Shown here piece by piece: positions 1 through 38,429 of a DNA stretch of 38,429 nt. Under the pieces are notes generated by a model that saw only the letters and a program-made list of their open reading frames with translations, was not told the DNA's origin and searched no databases. This stretch comes from Candidatus Woesearchaeota archaeon. Lineage in GTDB: Archaea > Nanobdellota > Nanobdellia > Woesearchaeales > ARS49. The position numbers and the translations under genes are program-made. The DNA lies in contig JACPID010000023.1 in the NCBI GenBank assembly GCA_016188265.1, positions 1 to 38,429 on the forward strand. The letters run 5' to 3'. Each line of letters starts with the position of its first letter. Positions within the stretch are counted from its first letter, which is position 1.

Positions 1-567
1 TATTATAATGGTGGTTGCTATAATTCTTGTGATCCTTCACAACAGCTTAAAGTTCCAAGACCATCTTCTGGCAGGTGGATAGATTGTGGTTTAAAAGAAT
101 GTTGCGTTTCACTTGAAAAATTAAAAATTCCCAAAACTGAAACAGTGCCAAAATCAGTTACTGAAGAATTTCTTGACTCAAAACCGCTTATTCCTATAGA
201 AGAGGTTGCGGTTCTTGATTGCCCTTCAAAAAATCACCTTGTTTCAAGAGAATTTACTTTTAAAAAAGAAGTTAAAAGAGAGACTGTTACTGCATTTGAG
301 CTTACTCAAGAGAGAGTTGAATTACGTGAAGACTGCAATATTAAAATGTCTGAAGTGAATGAAAAATTATCTAATTTGTGTAAAACTAAAAAATGTAGTA
401 ATACTTCTGAGAAAAAATGTTCAAAAAACCCAAAACCACTTGGATCTTATGTTGTTTTTAATGAAAATAAAAAATCGCCTACATATACTGGAGATTTACC
501 TTCAATTGAATTTACTTGTGATATTGTTATGCTTTGTGAGTGTGCTGAAGAAAAAATAAGTACCTAA
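1..567 (+). CDS. Cysteine-rich surface protein, 5' end missing
   Basis: The reading frame is open from the first base of the window, so the true start lies upstream; the GTG at 145 is only an internal codon. About 188 residues are visible. The upstream part contains GRWIDCGLKECCV, a Cys motif that recurs at the C-terminus of the 96-aa protein at 3145-3435. The rest is polar, with scattered Cys residues (for example TKKCSNTSEKKC and LCECAEEK), as expected for an exported, disulfide-bonded domain. No catalytic motif is recognised. Its position before ten small pilin-like genes suggests the same surface system (inference). The stop codon overlaps the first bases of a 22-bp direct repeat at 566-587. 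Confidence 0.75.
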   Translation, partial: YYNGGCYNSCDPSQQLKVPRPSSGRWIDCGLKECCVSLEKLKIPKTETVPKSVTEEFLDSKPLIPIEEVAVLDCPSKNHLVSREFTFKKEVKRETVTAFELTQERVELREDCNIKMSEVNEKLSNLCKTKKCSNTSEKKCSKNPKPLGSYVVFNENKKSPTYTGDLPSIEFTCDIVMLCECAEEKIST

Positions 568-587
568 TACAATGAAAACTAAAATCA
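566..587. repeat. Left copy of 22-bp direct repeat flanking the VapBC segment
   Basis: The 22 bases starting AATACAATGAAAACT are repeated perfectly at 1542-1563. This copy overlaps the stop codon of the upstream gene. The other copy contains the ATG of the 328-aa gene. The segment between the copies carries vapC, vapB, an inverted-repeat element and a 40-aa ORF. Confidence 0.9.
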
Positions 588-595
588 TCTGATAT

Positions 596-985
596 TTAAT
601 AACTTTCAACAACTAAGTTCTTAATTCTAGAATAATGATTAACATTTCTAGTTAATATACTTTTGCCATGTTTTATGCATATTCCTGCAATCATGCAATC
701 TTCTGCGTCAATTTCTCGGCCTTCACTTTTTAATTTTGCTCTTATTTTTCCGCCGATTTTAGCGCTTTCAGAATCTAAATCAAGTAAGCCTCTTTTTGAA
801 AAGAAATCATTTAATTTTTCTAATTTTTTTTCATCTTTTATGCTGTAAATCCCTTGCCAAATTTCGAAAACTGTAACTGCAGTAGTGAAAAGAGAAATGT
901 TTTTTTGCATTAATTCTTTGGCTTTTTCAACAGCAGCTTTATCATTTCGCAATAAATCTATCAAAAAAGAAGTTTCTAATATCAT
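596..985 (-). CDS. vapC: VapC-like PIN-domain ribonuclease toxin
   Basis: This is a 129-aa PIN-domain protein, the usual VapC size. VapC toxins are Mg-dependent RNases that cut tRNA or rRNA when freed from their antitoxin. Visible family features are the N-terminal LETSFLIDLL strand, a central FEIW glutamate, the acidic IDAEDCMIAG segment and the C-terminal LTRNVNHYSRI. The first catalytic position, normally Asp (LDTS), is Glu4 here; Asp10 follows. The start codon overlaps the end of vapB by 4 bp (ATGA type), so the two are translationally coupled. It runs against the surrounding + strand genes. Assignment to VapBC is firm; the RNA target is unknown. Confidence 0.9.
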   Translation of the reverse strand: MILETSFLIDLLRNDKAAVEKAKELMQKNISLFTTAVTVFEIWQGIYSIKDEKKLEKLNDFFSKRGLLDLDSESAKIGGKIRAKLKSEGREIDAEDCMIAGICIKHGKSILTRNVNHYSRIKNLVVESY

Positions 986-1215
986 TGCAAAGACTTCCTT
1001 ATTCTTTCCATCCTTTTATTTGATTCTTTTCTAGATTCTTTGATTCTTTTTTCAACAAGATCTGCTTCTTCTTTTGTTAATAAACCTGCTAGTTCCAGTA
1101 AATCAGATTCTCCGCTTAATCTTTTAATTACATCACTGAAACTCTCATAATCTTCTTTTTTAGCGCTTAAAAAATCATATGCATCTTCTGTAATAGTTAT
1201 AGTTTTGGTTGCCAT
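982..1215 (-). CDS. vapB: VapB-like antitoxin (DUF217 type)
   Basis: This 77-aa protein begins MATKTITITEDAYDFLSAKK, typical of the archaeal VapB/DUF217 antitoxins. The N-terminal beta strand and helix form a dimeric DNA-binding fold, followed by SFSDVIKRLSG. The charged C-terminal helix (about residues 45-77, rich in Lys, Arg and Glu) would wrap around VapC. It is the first gene of the pair, and its stop overlaps the vapC start. A 9+6+9 bp palindrome lies directly over its start codon, and a TATA-like box lies about 27 nt upstream, consistent with autorepression by the VapBC complex. Confidence 0.88.
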   Translation of the reverse strand: MATKTITITEDAYDFLSAKKEDYESFSDVIKRLSGESDLLELAGLLTKEEADLVEKRIKESRKESNKRMERIRKSLQ

Positions 1216-1238
1216 ACAAGTACGTGTATGTACTTGTA
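1215..1238 (-). promoter_or_regulatory. Palindromic operator at the vapBC start
   Basis: TACAAGTAC at 1215-1223 and GTACTTGTA at 1230-1238 are perfect inverted repeats separated by 6 nt. They cover the first base of vapB and the predicted transcription start. On the minus strand a TATA-like AGCTTAAATAAT (about 1237-1248) precedes it. The likely role is VapBC autoregulation (inference). Confidence 0.7.
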
Positions 1239-1277
1239 TTATTTAAGCTTTTTTGTTCATACTGCACGTTTGCTGTT

Positions 1278-1390
1278 TGTCAAAAACTACTCACTGAACT
1301 AAGTAGCGTGTAGTTTTTGATCATGATCGAGAATCACTCGTCCTTTCTACTGACTAAAGTCAATAGTGTACGTTAGAGCAGTTTTTGACA
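1278..1390. repeat. 113-bp element with inverted-repeat ends
   Basis: TGTCAAAAACT at 1278-1288 is the exact reverse complement of AGTTTTTGACA at 1380-1390. A second internal arm, GTAGTTTTTG at 1310-1319, pairs with CAAAAACTAC at 1281-1290. It lies between the vapB promoter and a small ORF. No protein-coding content is seen. It may be a MITE-like remnant or a structured RNA. Confidence 0.5.
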
Positions 1391-1397
1391 TATAAAC

Positions 1398-1409
1398 CTT
1401 TAAATAATC
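1398..1409 (+). promoter_or_regulatory. TATA-like box for the pilin-like operon
   Basis: CTTTAAATAATC lies about 26 nt (from its centre) before the ATG at 1429. The identical 12-mer occurs at 4967-4978, about 28 nt before the ATG at 5000. This spacing fits archaeal TATA boxes of leaderless transcripts. Confidence 0.6.
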
Positions 1410-1428
1410 ATTAATCTTTGTTGTTTTT

Positions 1429-1551
1429 ATGTTTAAAAGAGGAGATTTATCTTTGAACCAGTTAGTAAGAACTATTCTTGTTATTGCTTTTTTTGCTCTG
1501 GTTTTATATGCATTTTATACATTAACTAAAAAAGTACCCCCAATACAATGA
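1429..1551 (+). CDS. 40-aa pilin-like single-span membrane protein
   Basis: This short ORF has a basic N-terminus MFKRGDLSLNQ, then a hydrophobic stretch (about residues 13-31) and a short tail ending KKVPPIQ. Its stop overlaps the ATG of the next gene (ATGA at 1548-1551), so the pair is translationally coupled. A TATA-like box lies about 26 nt upstream. The KRG followed by a hydrophobic segment resembles class III (prepilin) signal peptides and recurs in the nine genes that follow. The function is unknown. The last codons fall in the right copy of the direct repeat around VapBC, so the end of this ORF may have been shaped by that insertion. Confidence 0.6.
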   Translation: MFKRGDLSLNQLVRTILVIAFFALVLYAFYTLTKKVPPIQ

Positions 1552-1563
1552 AAACTAAAATCA
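1542..1563. repeat. Right copy of 22-bp direct repeat flanking the VapBC segment
   Basis: This is identical over 22 bases to 566-587, with mismatching bases immediately outside both ends. It contains the ATG and first codons of the 328-aa gene, which suggests that this is the original copy. Confidence 0.9.
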
Positions 1564-2534
1564 ATAAAGCTCAACTTCAAATACAATATCTTGCTATTGC
1601 TGTTATTCTTTTAGTTTTTCTTGCATTTATGCTTGCTGTTGTAATGCCTAGATATATTAAATGGTGGAGAACTGGTGAAGAAGAAGCAGAATGCACTCTG
1701 TCCATCTGGATGGGTGCAATGAAGCAGTACTCAAGTTTAGGAATTTTAAGCTTACCTCCTCAGTGCAAGGCAAGAAATGTTGTTGTTGATAAAGCAAAGC
1801 TTTCAGAATATCAAGCTAAAGCAAAAAGTAAAATAGCAAAATATAAAGCAAATGATTATGAAAGAATTCTTGAAAAATTTAACAATCCTAAAGATGAAAA
1901 GCAAGTTAATGAATTAGCGCTAGACTTGCTTGTTAGTGATGAGCTTGTTTCCTGCTGGAAAAAAGTATTGCGGGGAAAGCTTCCAATGTTTGACAAGAAT
2001 TATAATGTTCTTGATCTTACTTTGTTTGGTGCATTTGAAGGAGATTATTCAGAGCGTGAAAAACAATTTGTTCAAAGTTCTAATGTAGGCTTTTTTGAAG
2101 TTTGGGGTCCTCCAAGTGCTTGTATTATTTGTTCACATATTAGGTTAACTGAAGATATTCAAAAATTAGGCCTTCCCGATGTAATAGAATCTGGCAACCT
2201 TGTTCTTGAACATACACCTGGACCTAAAGGATTTCCTAAATCTGCTTATGAATATTTAGAAGAAGGACAATATTTTCCTCCTACGTCTTTTTTTTCTCCT
2301 AATGAAAAACACATTGCAGTAGTTTATTTAAGAAGAAATATGCACTTAATTGATGAAGTGCTTGGAATTTTAAAACCTAAATATTTGTTACCAACATATT
2401 GGTTAAACCTTAAAACATATCCTGAAGGAGAAGTTCAAGATCAAAATCTTGTTGTTTTATTTCCATTTAATAAAGTTCAAAAACCAATAAGTAAAGAGGA
2501 GGGTGGTTTAGGATGTTTAAAAGTAGTTCAATAA
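1548..2534 (+). CDS. 328-aa pilin-like membrane-anchored protein, unknown function
   Basis: The N-terminus has basic residues, an NKAQ motif and a long hydrophobic helix (about residues 15-35), as in class III signal peptides. About 290 residues of presumed extracellular domain follow. Visible features are a helical charged region (about residues 75-130) and a region with paired Cys, PPSACIICSHIR, near residue 190. No enzyme motif is recognised. It is coupled to the 40-aa ORF upstream by ATGA, and its end overlaps the 48-aa ORF that starts at 2513. Clustering with other proteins of this layout suggests a pseudopilin or minor surface subunit (inference). Confidence 0.8.
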   Translation: MKTKINKAQLQIQYLAIAVILLVFLAFMLAVVMPRYIKWWRTGEEEAECTLSIWMGAMKQYSSLGILSLPPQCKARNVVVDKAKLSEYQAKAKSKIAKYKANDYERILEKFNNPKDEKQVNELALDLLVSDELVSCWKKVLRGKLPMFDKNYNVLDLTLFGAFEGDYSEREKQFVQSSNVGFFEVWGPPSACIICSHIRLTEDIQKLGLPDVIESGNLVLEHTPGPKGFPKSAYEYLEEGQYFPPTSFFSPNEKHIAVVYLRRNMHLIDEVLGILKPKYLLPTYWLNLKTYPEGEVQDQNLVVLFPFNKVQKPISKEEGGLGCLKVVQ

Positions 2535-2659: not shown

Positions 2660-3105
2660 ATAAAAAAGCAATTACAGTTGGAACACTTGTAACAATTATT
2701 TTAGCGCTTGTACTGCTTGTAGTAATGTTAAGTATTCCTTTATATCAGTATGTCAATGAACATTTTTTTTCTGGAAATCTTTTAGGTACTGCAAAACAAA
2801 AATTAGGTCTTGAAAAAGAATCTGTATTTAGGCCAAAACAAGATCCTTTTGACGAAGCCAGATTGTTTTGTAAAAAAGCAATAATTAAATACAAAGATGT
2901 TAAAGAAAATGATAAGTTTGATGTTAATGGAGCTGAAATTTTAGTGAAAAAAATAAATTTTGATAATAAAACTGTATTGCTTGAAAAAAACAAAGAACTT
3001 AGAGAAGGCAGAGAAGGCGGTTATGCTTATTTTTCAGATGGCTTAGGATTCCATGTTGTTGTTATTCGTAGCAAAGATCTAGACACTTCATTATGCGTTG
3101 GTTAA
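2656..3105 (+). CDS. 149-aa pilin-like membrane protein
   Basis: The N-terminus MNKKAITVGTLV runs into a hydrophobic helix (about residues 8-30), a typical prepilin-like arrangement. The remaining ~115 residues are soluble, with two Cys (FCKKA and the C-terminal SLCVG). The start is fixed by the ATGA overlap with the preceding 48-aa ORF. No known domain is recognised. It is part of the run of co-oriented small membrane proteins and is probably a minor subunit of the same surface assembly (inference). Confidence 0.75.
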   Translation: MNKKAITVGTLVTIILALVLLVVMLSIPLYQYVNEHFFSGNLLGTAKQKLGLEKESVFRPKQDPFDEARLFCKKAIIKYKDVKENDKFDVNGAEILVKKINFDNKTVLLEKNKELREGREGGYAYFSDGLGFHVVVIRSKDLDTSLCVG

Positions 3106-3110
3106 ACAAT

Positions 3111-3123
3111 AAATATTTATAAC
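3111..3123 (+). promoter_or_regulatory. TATA-like box before the 96-aa gene
   Basis: AAATATTTATAAC lies about 29 nt upstream of the ATG at 3145, in the 39-bp gap after the previous gene. It gives this gene a promoter of its own, probably leaderless. Confidence 0.5.
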
Positions 3124-3144
3124 TAAAAAAAATTAGAACTTAAT

Positions 3145-3435
3145 ATGATGAACAATAAAGGTTTGGATATTGGTATTGGAATAATTATTTTGCTAACCTT
3201 AGGCTTAATTCTTCTAATAGTATTTATTCCAATTATTACTCAAAAAATTCCAGAATGGACTGAAAAAGCTGAAGAGCTTGGTGAAAAAGCAGTAAAAATT
3301 GAGAATAATTGTGCTGCCCAAGGATATGTTTGCACTGCAAAAGATGTATGCGATGAAAAAGGCGCTGAACGTTCTGTTCCTGAAGGCAGCTGGTTTGACT
3401 GCAAGCCTCCTTCTGTTTGCTGTAAAATAATATAA
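3145..3435 (+). CDS. 96-aa cysteine-rich pilin-like protein
   Basis: The N-terminus MMNNKGLDIGIG and a hydrophobic helix (about residues 8-30) form a class III-like signal. A short exported domain has seven Cys: NNCAAQGYVC, DVC, FDC and CC near the end. GSWFDCKPPSVCC at the C-terminus matches the GRWIDC..CC motif of the partial gene at the left edge, so the two are probably related. Disulfide stabilisation outside the cell is likely. ATG codons at 3145 and 3148 are both possible. Function unknown. Confidence 0.75.
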   Translation: MMNNKGLDIGIGIIILLTLGLILLIVFIPIITQKIPEWTEKAEELGEKAVKIENNCAAQGYVCTAKDVCDEKGAERSVPEGSWFDCKPPSVCCKII

Positions 3436-34889: not shown

Positions 34890-34905
34890 TTTTCCTCTTT
34901 TATAC

Positions 34906-34926
34906 TTTAAACTATACGTGCACAAA
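34906..34926. repeat. Left copy of 21-bp direct repeat flanking HEPN-MNT
   Basis: 21 bases containing ACTATACGTGCACAAA are perfectly repeated at 36096-36116, with mismatches immediately outside. This copy lies between the MNT stop and the ribosome binding site of the 362-aa gene and would encode the last residues of the adhesin if read on the minus strand. Confidence 0.9.
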
Positions 34927-34939
34927 CCATGCAGATTGA

Positions 34940-35539
34940 TTATTTCATCTTTTCTAAAAAATAATTTGTTCCTTTTATAATCAGCCTTTGTGATGTTTTT
35001 TTTAGAGTCATAATAGATGCTTCTTTTTTTTTTATCAAATCTTTAAATTCTCTTTCTGATAAAATTAATGGATTTACTTCTTTTCCAGTGACTGTGGATA
35101 ATTGAGATATCTTGTTTTTAATTTCAAAATTCTTCTTTTTTACTACTAGCAGTATATCAATATCACTTTCTTCGGTAAAAGAAATTCTTGCATAACTTCC
35201 AAATAAAATACAGGTTAAGATATAACCATCAAAAAATAAGTTTGTTAGATGTTTTATTATGCTGTTAACTGTTTTGCTTTTTGTTTGTAACTTATAATCT
35301 TCTATAATTGCTGTCAACAAAGGATATTTATTTTGTGTTTTGTCAAAAGATATTAGAATTGTTTTTCCGGCTTTTTTTTCTTTCAAAAAAATTTTTAATT
35401 TTAGTAATGTTTTTTGTGCACTATATGGGTGAATTTTTAATTCTTTAGCTATATCTAACAAATGGTTTTCTTCCTTGTCATAAATTGTTTTTAAGATTTC
35501 TATTTTATTCTTTGTTAAAGGAATTAATTTTTCTATCAT
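34940..35539 (-). CDS. MNT-type nucleotidyltransferase antitoxin with HTH domain
   Basis: The 199-aa protein has an N-terminal winged-helix-like HTH (residues ~5-60: NKIEILKTIYDKEENHLLDIAKELKI) and a minimal nucleotidyltransferase domain with LFGSYARISFTEESDIDILLVV, which contains the GS and DxD metal-binding motif. In HEPN-MNT systems the MNT protein neutralises the HEPN RNase, in known cases by adding AMP to it. The start overlaps the HEPN stop by 4 bp. Both genes lie between 21-bp direct repeats. The HTH could bind the palindrome upstream of HEPN. Confidence 0.85.
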   Translation of the reverse strand: MIEKLIPLTKNKIEILKTIYDKEENHLLDIAKELKIHPYSAQKTLLKLKIFLKEKKAGKTILISFDKTQNKYPLLTAIIEDYKLQTKSKTVNSIIKHLTNLFFDGYILTCILFGSYARISFTEESDIDILLVVKKKNFEIKNKISQLSTVTGKEVNPLILSEREFKDLIKKKEASIMTLKKTSQRLIIKGTNYFLEKMK

Positions 35540-36033
35540 TCTATCTCTCCTAATAATTGTAATAATTGCCTTATTTCTTCAATTATTTTTTCTGATGGAA
35601 TTTTAACTTTTCTAAGTGTTTTTGGCAGGTAAAGATAATTATTCCGCGTAATTCTTATATTGGAAAGTTCTTCATAAAAAGAGTTTTTTGGCAATAGTTC
35701 AGCAAATAACTTATCTTTCTTCTTAAGCATTTGGTGAATTTGAGTTAATGTTTTTTCAGGAATTAATTTGTTTGAAAGCAGAGCAATTATAACACAATTA
35801 TGATCTTTTGAGTAAAATCCAAGCTTTTTTACTAAAATAGAATTACACATCAGAAATAAAGCCTGGTATGCTTTTGTTACCGCCCATCTGGGATTTTCTT
35901 CTTTTTTAGCAGAATCCACATCCTCGTACGCTAATTCCTGGTATTCTCTAAACAGGGAATTGTCTATTTTGACAAATTTTTTCTCACATTTTTTGTAAAC
36001 TTTTTCTAAAACTTCTTTTGTTTTTGGCAACAT
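35536..36033 (-). CDS. HEPN-domain RNase toxin
   Basis: The 165-aa helical protein fits the HEPN domain, with YQELAYEDVDSAKKEENPRWAVTKAYQALFLMCNSIL in the first half and NIRITRNNYLYLP near residue 132. The classic RNase motif is R-x4-6-H; here the sequence offers R-N-N-Y with Tyr where His is usual, so catalytic activity is uncertain. It is the first gene of the pair. A 20-bp near-palindrome overlaps its promoter, and the MNT gene starts within its stop. Confidence 0.8.
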   Translation of the reverse strand: MLPKTKEVLEKVYKKCEKKFVKIDNSLFREYQELAYEDVDSAKKEENPRWAVTKAYQALFLMCNSILVKKLGFYSKDHNCVIIALLSNKLIPEKTLTQIHQMLKKKDKLFAELLPKNSFYEELSNIRITRNNYLYLPKTLRKVKIPSEKIIEEIRQLLQLLGEIE

Positions 36034-36095: not shown

Positions 36096-36116
36096 TTTAA
36101 ACTATACGTGCACAAA
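36096..36116. repeat. Right copy of 21-bp direct repeat flanking HEPN-MNT
   Basis: This is identical to 34906-34926. It forms the last codons and stop of the adhesin gene (minus strand, residues CARIV and TAA), so this copy, or its precursor, is in its native place. Confidence 0.9.
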
Positions 36117-38429
36117 TTGCCCATACAGTATGATTAATTTCTAAAGATGATGCACAATTCCACGAATTATCTGTATTCGGGTATGAAGCACTATTGTACG
36201 CTTCGCATCCTCCGCCTAAAACTTTTTTACCTGCTGTACAATTAATACTGCACTGGACTGCAGAAACACATGTATTAGAAACCCGTTCCAATCCAACATT
36301 TATGCTTCCTGCAACTTCTAGATTGTTATTAATACTTACATTTAAACTTGTACTGGTATTTGTTGTAGTATTTGTCCAACCACCAGTTCCATCATTATTA
36401 TCTGGCAGATTTGTCAGCTGGCTTGCATCTCCTGCAAATGCTGTTGCTGTTACTGTTCCTGCAACGTGCAATGCGCTTGTTGGGTTTGTATTATTTATTC
36501 CAACATTTGTTCCATCATTATACAAGTTATTAACAGAAGCCCAGCCTGCTCCATTATTTCTTAAAGTTTGACCATTGCTTCCTGTAGGAAGATTTGAATT
36601 GCTTATATTATTAAGCCTTGATTCATGATCACCAAGCACATCTAATAAATAAACTGACAATTGATCATAATTTATTCCTTCAATTCTTCCACTATAATTG
36701 AAAACAAGCGCAGGAATTAATTCATAAACCTCTTCAGCAATTAAACCTATACCGTACTCACCAGTATTGTTAAAATTAAATGATATTGGCTGCAAGCTAA
36801 AAAGTTTTGTTTTATCAACTGTAAAATTTGTTATATTTGTTTTATACCTTCTACTTGAACTACAGGTTGAAAGATCATTATTAGCATCCCTACACACTGA
36901 TGTAGCTGCAGCAGCAGCTAAAACACCAACTCTAATACCTCCATTAACATCAAATGTGTTTCCAGGAGTAGTAGTATTTATGCCGACACTGCCATTGCCA
37001 TTAATAGTCATTCTTTGTACAATATTAGAACCGCCGGTAGCTCTTGTCCAAAACTGCAAATTGGTTTCTATATTATTCGTTCCAGTGAAGGTCGTAACGT
37101 CAGAACGTATTTGGGTGCCTGGCAAAAATAACGTCCCGTCATGACCTTGAAAACTGATTGCCCCTATAACTTCACCTGTCGCCACTGTGGTTGGAGCATC
37201 TACTGTACCGCCAGATTTTCGTAATCGTAATACACTAGCTTGGCCGTCTGTATCACTTCCGGTAGTTATATGAAGTTCACTATTAGCCGCATCTTTAGCA
37301 ACAGTGAGCTTCTCTGTTGGGATCGTCGTCCCAATGCCGACGTTGCCGTTCTCCAAAATTCTCATTCGTTCTGTCGGTGTATCAGAACCATTAGTTGTTG
37401 TGTAAAAAACCAAACTTCCTGGCGTATTATTTACTGCAGGAGTTCCATTAACAAATGATGCTATTCTTGCGGTGCTTTGAGTAAAATCAACTCCGTCATA
37501 AGCTGCAAATTCTATTTGCCCTATTACATCTCCGTTCCCGACGATTGTAGGGCTTGCATAAGTATTATTTGCCCTGGCAAATAAAAGAGGAGAAGCAAAA
37601 TTGGAAGTTGAAGCTCTGTATAAAACAGCCCCTTGTCCTGCTCCTGTACTGCTTAGAACTTGAGCAGTTGGATTGAAAGATTGGATTCCAACCTCTGTAA
37701 GCTTAGTTATACTCGCTCCAAGTAAAGAATCTCCTACTACTACAAATTCTTCTGTTGGGCTCGCCGTCCCAATGCCGACATTACCAGTAGTATTCTGAAT
37801 AAAGAATTGTGTTCCTCCAGTTGCTAACTCACTAATATTCAACCCACCACTAATCGTATCAGCCCTTAAAACCCAAGACCTATTACTACCAACCAACGCA
37901 TTAGTCCTTAACGCAGCTATTCTTAATTCAGAACTATTTGTTGACGAGTTAATTAACAGAACTGTATTTGTACTGTTAACTTCAAGATTAGCATTAGGAG
38001 CTACTGATCCGATGCCGACGTTGCCGTCGATATCAATTCTCATTTTCTCCGTTAGACTGCTGGTCCCTGTCTTAAAAATGTGGTCTCCTGAATCGGCTCC
38101 AGACGCTCCGCCAGACTGCGTATTGTATTCAATCTGACCAAAATTGCCGCCAGCATTAAACCCGGAATAAAGAATAATGTGTGACCCGCTGTTCGGGCTG
38201 GCTCCTATCGTATTCAGATTGGATTGTATCGTAAGCGTTGTTGGGGTTGGATCTTGCGCCACTGTCCTTCGGATCACCGCATTTCGATTGCCAGCCAATC
38301 CTATATCTTCATTGATATCCAGTCCTTCAATTGGGCTCGTCGTACCAACACCCACATTACCAGTATTATTTTGTATAAATAATTGTGTTCCACCACTAGC
38401 AAGCTCACTAATATTCAACCCACCACTAA
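36097..38429 (-). CDS. Large repetitive adhesin or fibre protein with S74 chaperone domain, 5' end beyond window
   Basis: The frame is open to the right edge, so at least 776 residues are visible and the N-terminus is missing. The body consists of repeats built around GNVGIGTxxPTE and SGGLNISELAxGGTQxFIQN, as in tail-fibre-like beta-structured stalks. An S74 peptidase/intramolecular chaperone domain follows (SSRRYKTNI with Ser and Lys, FSLQPISFNF, YGIGLIAEEVYELIPALV, DQLSVYLLDVLGDHE). In phage fibres this domain trimerises the shaft and is then cut off. Here about 250 residues run from the cleavage motif to the stop, ending in a Cys-rich domain (CVSAVQCSINC, GGGCEAYN, WNCASS, WAICARIV). The base composition of the repeat region is patchily richer in GC. 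Confidence 0.85.
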   Translation of the reverse strand, partial: SGGLNISELASGGTQLFIQNNTGNVGVGTTSPIEGLDINEDIGLAGNRNAVIRRTVAQDPTPTTLTIQSNLNTIGASPNSGSHIILYSGFNAGGNFGQIEYNTQSGGASGADSGDHIFKTGTSSLTEKMRIDIDGNVGIGSVAPNANLEVNSTNTVLLINSSTNSSELRIAALRTNALVGSNRSWVLRADTISGGLNISELATGGTQFFIQNTTGNVGIGTASPTEEFVVVGDSLLGASITKLTEVGIQSFNPTAQVLSSTGAGQGAVLYRASTSNFASPLLFARANNTYASPTIVGNGDVIGQIEFAAYDGVDFTQSTARIASFVNGTPAVNNTPGSLVFYTTTNGSDTPTERMRILENGNVGIGTTIPTEKLTVAKDAANSELHITTGSDTDGQASVLRLRKSGGTVDAPTTVATGEVIGAISFQGHDGTLFLPGTQIRSDVTTFTGTNNIETNLQFWTRATGGSNIVQRMTINGNGSVGINTTTPGNTFDVNGGIRVGVLAAAAATSVCRDANNDLSTCSSSRRYKTNITNFTVDKTKLFSLQPISFNFNNTGEYGIGLIAEEVYELIPALVFNYSGRIEGINYDQLSVYLLDVLGDHESRLNNISNSNLPTGSNGQTLRNNGAGWASVNNLYNDGTNVGINNTNPTSALHVAGTVTATAFAGDASQLTNLPDNNDGTGGWTNTTTNTSTSLNVSINNNLEVAGSINVGLERVSNTCVSAVQCSINCTAGKKVLGGGCEAYNSASYPNTDNSWNCASSLEINHTVWAICARIV

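Follow-up and report, generated by a model that had tools for sequence, protein, structure and literature searches.

To our knowledge, it has long been an open question by what route solitary toxin-antitoxin modules pass from one chromosome to another when no recombinase is involved. The locus described here, in the genome of a Candidatus Woesearchaeota archaeon, poses that question on a small scale: a vapBC pair lies within an operon, and the same 22 nucleotides stand on both sides of it. How did the module come to be there, and which of the two copies is the original? We addressed this in the window, meaning the whole stretch of 38,429 nucleotides that was analysed (GC 0.318), and by comparison with other parts of the same genome and with relatives. 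The features that bear on the question are collected in Table 1.

Table 1. Positions of the features at the two repeat-bounded sites, counted from the first letter of the window.
Feature	Positions	Strand	Basis
P0002, upstream operon gene, Cys-rich, 3' part only (cut by the contig start)	1..567	+	Cys-rich genes with class-III-type signal segments at the equivalent place in relatives
Duplicate copy (stub) of the 40-aa/328-aa junction	554..587	+	Perfect core 566-587
vapC, PIN-domain toxin, 129 aa	596..985	-	Pfam PF01850 E=4.5e-14, above cut-off
vapB antitoxin, 77 aa, overlapping vapC	982..1215	-	Pfam PF02697 E=2.8e-17
Perfect 10-bp inverted repeat ATACAAGTAC-N6-GTACTTGTAT at vapB start	1214..1239		Sequence
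Inverted-repeat element, about 114 bp, TGTCAAAAACTACTC...GAGCAGTTTTTGACA	1278..1391		Family dispersed in the genome, with 20 further full or partial matches
40-aa small membrane protein gene, conserved native operon gene	1429..1551	+	Conservation in relatives
Native junction of the 40-aa and 328-aa genes (stop and start overlap as ATGA), from which the duplicate was copied	1528..1563	+	Perfect core 1542-1563
328-aa membrane protein gene, conserved downstream operon gene	1548..2534	+	Matches in 37/353 genomes of the order
Duplicate 21-bp copy of the 776-aa gene 3' end, before the 374-aa gene	34906..34926	-	Decayed similarity about 34903-34945
MNT-type nucleotidyltransferase, N-terminal HTH-like part, 199 aa	34940..35539	-	PF01909 E=8.9e-8, PF18765 E=5e-8
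HEPN-like protein, 165 aa, weak match	35536..36033	-	PF05168 E=0.0096, below cut-off; mainly pairing with MNT
Native copy at the 776-aa gene 3' end, final six codons plus stop (ICARIV*)	36096..36116	-	Repeat comparison

The direct repeat and its native copy

The direct repeat AATACAATGAAAACTAAAATCA is identical at 22/22 nucleotides in its two copies (566–587 and 1542–1563), which are spaced 976 bp apart. A preliminary description of this DNA had reported the match at these positions, as we found it, and had judged it unlikely by chance. Our searches agreed with that judgement. When up to 3 mismatches were allowed, the sequence was found at only these two sites in the 923,817-bp assembly; the same search of the window returned 2 sites against an expectation of 0 in shuffles; and the longest exact repeat within 2 kb stayed below 22 nt in every one of 300 simulated windows (order-4 Markov), with 21 nt seen once. 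The bases immediately outside the copies had been described as different, and the adjoining bases do differ, but similarity resumes leftward across a 2-nt gap, where the end of P0002 (AAAAAATAAGTACC--TAATACAATG) resembles the end of the 40-aa gene (AAAAAAGTACCCCCAATACAATG). Blastn aligned 554–587 to 1528–1563 at 89% with this gap included. The copied piece is about 35 bp, not just the 22-nt core, and the last codons of P0002 (..KIST*) and its stop fall inside it. A further repeat of 21 nt in the window (1473/5068) is T-rich, links two membrane-protein coding stretches and bounds nothing, and was set aside.

Between the copies we found, in the places given by the preliminary description, vapBC (minus strand), the 40-aa ORF and the inverted-repeat element, and Pfam matches supported vapBC. 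Its statement that the segment carries no recombinase also held: neither a transposase nor a recombinase was detected between the copies. Terminal inverted repeats were not found at 588 and 1541, and the 1278–1391 element has its own ends inside the segment. Judged by its sequence, the pair is a VapBC type II toxin-antitoxin system, with a PIN-domain VapC, an adjacent and overlapping upstream antitoxin of the PF02697 type, and a palindrome at the start of vapB that is likely to be an operator. The closest VapC found (58% identity) belongs to a Woesearchaeota MAG, where it occupies an unrelated site beside a glycyl-tRNA synthetase-like gene. The module itself is ordinary; the interest lies in its mode of insertion. 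The right edge of the vapBC insert falls somewhere in 1216–1428, the region that holds the inverted-repeat element. Members of this dispersed family are about 90–140 bp long, with ends TGTCAARAACTAC / GTAGTTTTTGACA and an optional inner insert of about 27 bp; the element at 1278–1391 had no match in Rfam, and it may be MITE-like or a structured RNA.

The direction of the copying was read from the host operon. In 13 of the relatives examined, an ORF of 34–52 aa with one membrane segment precedes the 328-aa homologue, its stop overlapping the start of that gene, usually as ATGA or GTGA and in a few cases as TGATG. Genes further upstream in these relatives are often Cys-rich with class-III-type signal segments, and so resemble P0002. 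The junction reads MMKKGEISVRTIVSLVLTLVFFALITYLFIQKFPAP in the nearest relative (L010) and MFKRGDLSLNQLVRTILVIAFFALVLYAFYTLTKKVPPIQ here, where a TATA-like TTTAAATA stands ahead of the 40-aa gene at 1399–1406. Because the 40-aa ORF is conserved before 328-aa homologues, the right-hand copy is the native one and the left-hand copy the duplicate, which is fused to the 3' end of P0002. The source genome was the sole genome of its genus examined, and the nearest 328-aa homologues are only 36–38% identical. In distant relatives the operon is present without vapBC, in sequences too diverged for the 22-mer to be traced; a scan of genome contigs with the 328-aa protein gave no match. One distant relative (L019 of G340) has a PIN and AbrB-like pair about 610–1200 bp upstream of its 328-aa homologue.

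Scars at other toxin-antitoxin modules

A second site of this kind lies within the window, where a perfect 21-bp repeat bounds an MNT/HEPN-like pair and gapped similarity extends to about 45 bp. Without the pair and one copy, about 16 nt would separate the end of the 776-aa gene, stop included, from the ATG that follows. Among close family relatives of the 374-aa protein, none was found that could give an empty site. The 776-aa gene also holds an internal 26-bp repeat (37828–37853/38404–38429), which was rejected as a candidate. The contig ends exactly within the copy at 38404–38429, likely an assembly break at the repeat.

We scanned 400 kb of other stretches of the same genome for exact repeats of at least 20 nt at a spacing of 250–4000 bp. 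Such repeats were few, and two of them bound toxin-antitoxin modules (50 bp and 188 bp). In the first, 50 bp with one mismatch enclose an AbrB-type antitoxin and a ParE toxin (PF05016 E=1.3e-12), and the module sits between aspS and asnS (L062:3691-4736, contig C15). The source of the stub is asnS codons about 77–93, and the end and stop of aspS have been replaced after ..DAHIK; in relatives the native aspS tails continue, for example as ..LHLKTDATHHGEKK* or ..LHIKLNVVRP*. The second encloses an AbrB-PIN pair together with a thymidine-kinase-like gene (L067:14493-16830, contig C4). Its 188-bp repeat is hairpin-rich, matches at 98%, and comprises the whole intergenic region plus the first nine bases of the next gene.

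Comparable scars of 23–148 bp were found at five of 80 PIN loci in family relatives. In genome G033 (L123), an AbrB-PIN module is bounded by a copy of the beginning of the following gene (109 bp, 95%), and removal restores an ATGA stop/start overlap. Genome G030 (L120) carries the same AbrB-PIN module as G033 at the orthologous junction, where the stub has decayed and measures 40 bp. The remaining three are VapBC modules. The copy at L165/G014 spans 23 bp and comes from a convergent AsnC-like gene, at its 3' end; that at L161/G032 was taken from the 3' end of mutY (71 bp, 75%); and that at L116/G022 derives from the interior of a convergent gene (148 bp, 78%). Between G030 and G033 the module proteins are 75% and 59% identical at the amino acid level and the neighbours 27% and 36%, and each stub copies its own host gene. 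The modules may have entered this site independently, or the copies may have exchanged sequence by gene conversion. The match of each stub to the gene of its own host suggests that recipient sequence was duplicated.

Repeat lengths differed among the insertions (21–22, 23, 40, 50, 71, 109, 148 and 188 bp), and no shared motif was seen when the duplicated sequences were compared by eye. Judged by sequence, removal of the insert and one copy restores the junction for the MNT/HEPN-like pair, the 188-bp site and G033. In three offset cases (vapBC here, ParE/AbrB, and VapBC in G022), the stub adjoins the module, as would be expected if the duplication ended there.

A bounding-repeat score of at least 19 was reached by 6 of 80 PIN loci and by 2 of 160 random segments from the same family (Fisher p = 0.018). 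After inspection, which was non-blind and concerned hits already seen, the counts were 5/80 and 0/160 (p = 0.004). Non-blind inspection of the source genome itself left 3 hits among 18 PIN or MNT loci and none among 159 random segments (p = 0.0009). A scan of near flanks gave a weaker contrast than the bounding-repeat score, because offset copies lay outside its windows and L123 was missed by the module finder. About 75 of the 80 toxin-antitoxin modules of the family carry no scar; therefore, either scars decay or other routes dominate.

Several matches were discarded as toxin-antitoxin scars: three pieces of 18–35 bp in L061, all at one offset, 2775 bp apart; 20 bp within a PLD-like gene (L073); and 19 bp of paralogous coding sequence (L080). 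Matches in L159, L142, L162 and L177 resembled coding coincidence or low complexity and were left out of the counts. Neither random-control hit was an insertion, one being due to paralogous permeases (L236) and the other to a promoter motif (L241). The source genome gave three non-module matches of at least 19, which fell in the two AAA domains of one Cdc48-like gene (L063) and in A-rich stretches of ribosomal protein genes (L072); these were not insertions either. The repeat in L061 is about 90 bp long (L061:290-378 and 3065-3153, contig C15; 2775 bp apart) and surrounds three uncharacterised genes, and it could be another insertion with flank duplication. In L063 (17319-19571, contig C15), the Cdc48-like AAA ATPase ORF starts with a segment running from ..GYFDGDGTVS.. 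to ..NFVAGNLLLLHNS, which resembles an intein that includes a LAGLIDADG-type endonuclease portion.

How the module may have entered the operon

We think it probable that a vapBC insertion left the scar seen here, and that it began with capture of the module at a break, continued with tandem duplication of the flank and ended with trimming of one copy to a stub. The target would have been the conserved operon of Cys-rich, 40-aa and 328-aa genes, and the point of entry would lie between the first two. There, vapBC would have been captured at a break or stalled fork, and the downstream flank, reaching at least codon 5 of the 328-aa gene, would have been duplicated in tandem around it, presumably over a greater length than is now visible. 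The redundant far-side copy would then have been trimmed to the stub of about 35 bp that abuts vapC, and the final codons of the upstream gene, stop included, would have given way to this stub. In the near-side copy the 40-aa and 328-aa genes would have stayed intact. Since similarity continues beyond the core across a 2-nt indel, the stub looks like a longer copy in decay. The model requires a full first copy of the 40-aa gene, and no such copy remains at the locus. We favour long duplication followed by trimming because it covers the clean, the decayed and the offset cases, as well as the stub that adjoins the module. Flank duplication should leave both neighbours usable in a dense operon, and surviving insertions should be enriched for it.

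A template switch that copied the junction, the alternative named in the preliminary description, is possible but rather unlikely. While a break was being repaired or a fork restarted, the nascent strand would have left the upstream gene, copied about 22–35 nt of the 40-aa/328-aa junction, some 150 bp onward in the ancestral operon, then moved to a vapBC donor, and would have returned before the 40-aa gene; no long duplication would ever have existed. Such an event would explain the offset copies at vapBC and at ParE/AbrB in one step, and it agrees with the short distance of the source from the upstream stop in relatives (only about 140–190 bp) and with short common bases at the entry points (CC.AA; TAAAG). 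However, acting alone it leaves unexplained the clean flank duplications, in which no offset is needed (188 bp, 109 bp, and the mutY 3' end), and the indel in the similarity past the perfect core resembles decay of a longer copy.

It is improbable that the junction was copied by slippage or gene conversion in an event unrelated to vapBC, with the module arriving earlier or later. Local duplications do occur, and the 40-aa gene sits between vapBC and the source copy. Nevertheless, 8 nt separate the stub from the stop of vapC, copies that abut or flank the module were seen at eight further toxin-antitoxin sites, and the inspected random segments gave none, except for one that itself holds such a module.

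We consider it very improbable that the repeat is an exact 22-bp target duplication in which the insert is the whole 588–1541 segment, including the 40-aa ORF. The perfect repeat, and the plausible 4-nt junction left after deletion, speak for this reading, and the preliminary description had counted the 40-aa ORF as inserted and had taken the deletion of one copy and the 954 bp between them to give the ancestral junction. Neither point survived the comparison with relatives: the 40-aa gene is a conserved native neighbour that overlaps the 328-aa gene in 13 of them, so that removing the insert plus one copy would take a conserved gene with it and would not restore the ancestral junction. The similarity also exceeds 22 bp. 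What stands of its proposal, an insertion with a long target duplication, is that vapBC was inserted in a conserved operon, that the repeat most likely arose from this insertion, and that similar scars are found elsewhere; the duplication is not a simple exact one, and the 954 bp are not all insert. Chance, or the sequence constraints of gene starts in AT-rich DNA, can hardly account for the repeat, AT-rich as this genome is, when no further match with up to 3 mismatches occurs in 924 kb and 22 nt was not reached in any of 300 simulations.

Known systems and wider meaning

The closest precedent concerns restriction-modification genes, which share their addiction property with toxin-antitoxin modules and whose complexes, in bacteria, are reported to insert with long and variable target duplications, as two later papers describe it (PMC3031569, PMC1643837, citing Nobusato et al. 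2000, Gene 259:99; Furuta et al. 2010, NAR 38:2428). As in those cases, the locus presents a selfish, addiction-type complex, without a recombinase, between long direct repeats of target sequence that vary in length. They differ in three ways: the cargo here is toxin-antitoxin (VapBC, AbrB-PIN, ParE, MNT/HEPN-like), the host belongs to a DPANN-type archaeal family, and a number of copies have been trimmed or lie at an offset, so that native genes stand between the module and its source sequence.

Homology-facilitated illegitimate recombination (PMC3240628; PMC5361080 for effector-immunity modules in Vibrio) is a related route. It resembles our cases in that a small module is taken up without a recombinase beside a conserved gene, and neighbours are partly copied. 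In contrast, it requires a donor with a homologous flank as an anchor, and no donor sequence was found; the stubs in G033 and G030 match their own host genes. Target-site duplication by transposons likewise leaves an insert flanked by a direct repeat, but here there is no transposase, there are no terminal inverted repeats at the module ends, and the length ranges from about 21 to 188 bp. The variable length, together with the lack of a common sequence, of a recombinase and of terminal inverted repeats, therefore argues against fixed-length duplication by a transposase.

A literature search, which covered few subscription journals, returned no report of such a signature for archaeal toxin-antitoxin modules. 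We suggest, tentatively and as a possibility, that the toxin-antitoxin modules of this DPANN-type family (VapBC, ParE/AbrB, AbrB-PIN and MNT/HEPN-like) spread by a common, recombinase-free route. Modules would insert at gene junctions, 20–190 bp or more of host flank would be duplicated so that the neighbours stay usable, and the same junction could be hit independently in different genera. Scars of differing age, from fresh (95–100%) to decayed (75%), at unrelated modules within one archaeal family provide a sequence signature that can be counted. This signature makes it testable whether addiction modules enter via break repair with flank duplication, as was proposed for restriction-modification genes. 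Such insertions also rewrite the C-termini of their neighbours, as at the aspartyl-tRNA synthetase and the Cys-rich operon gene.
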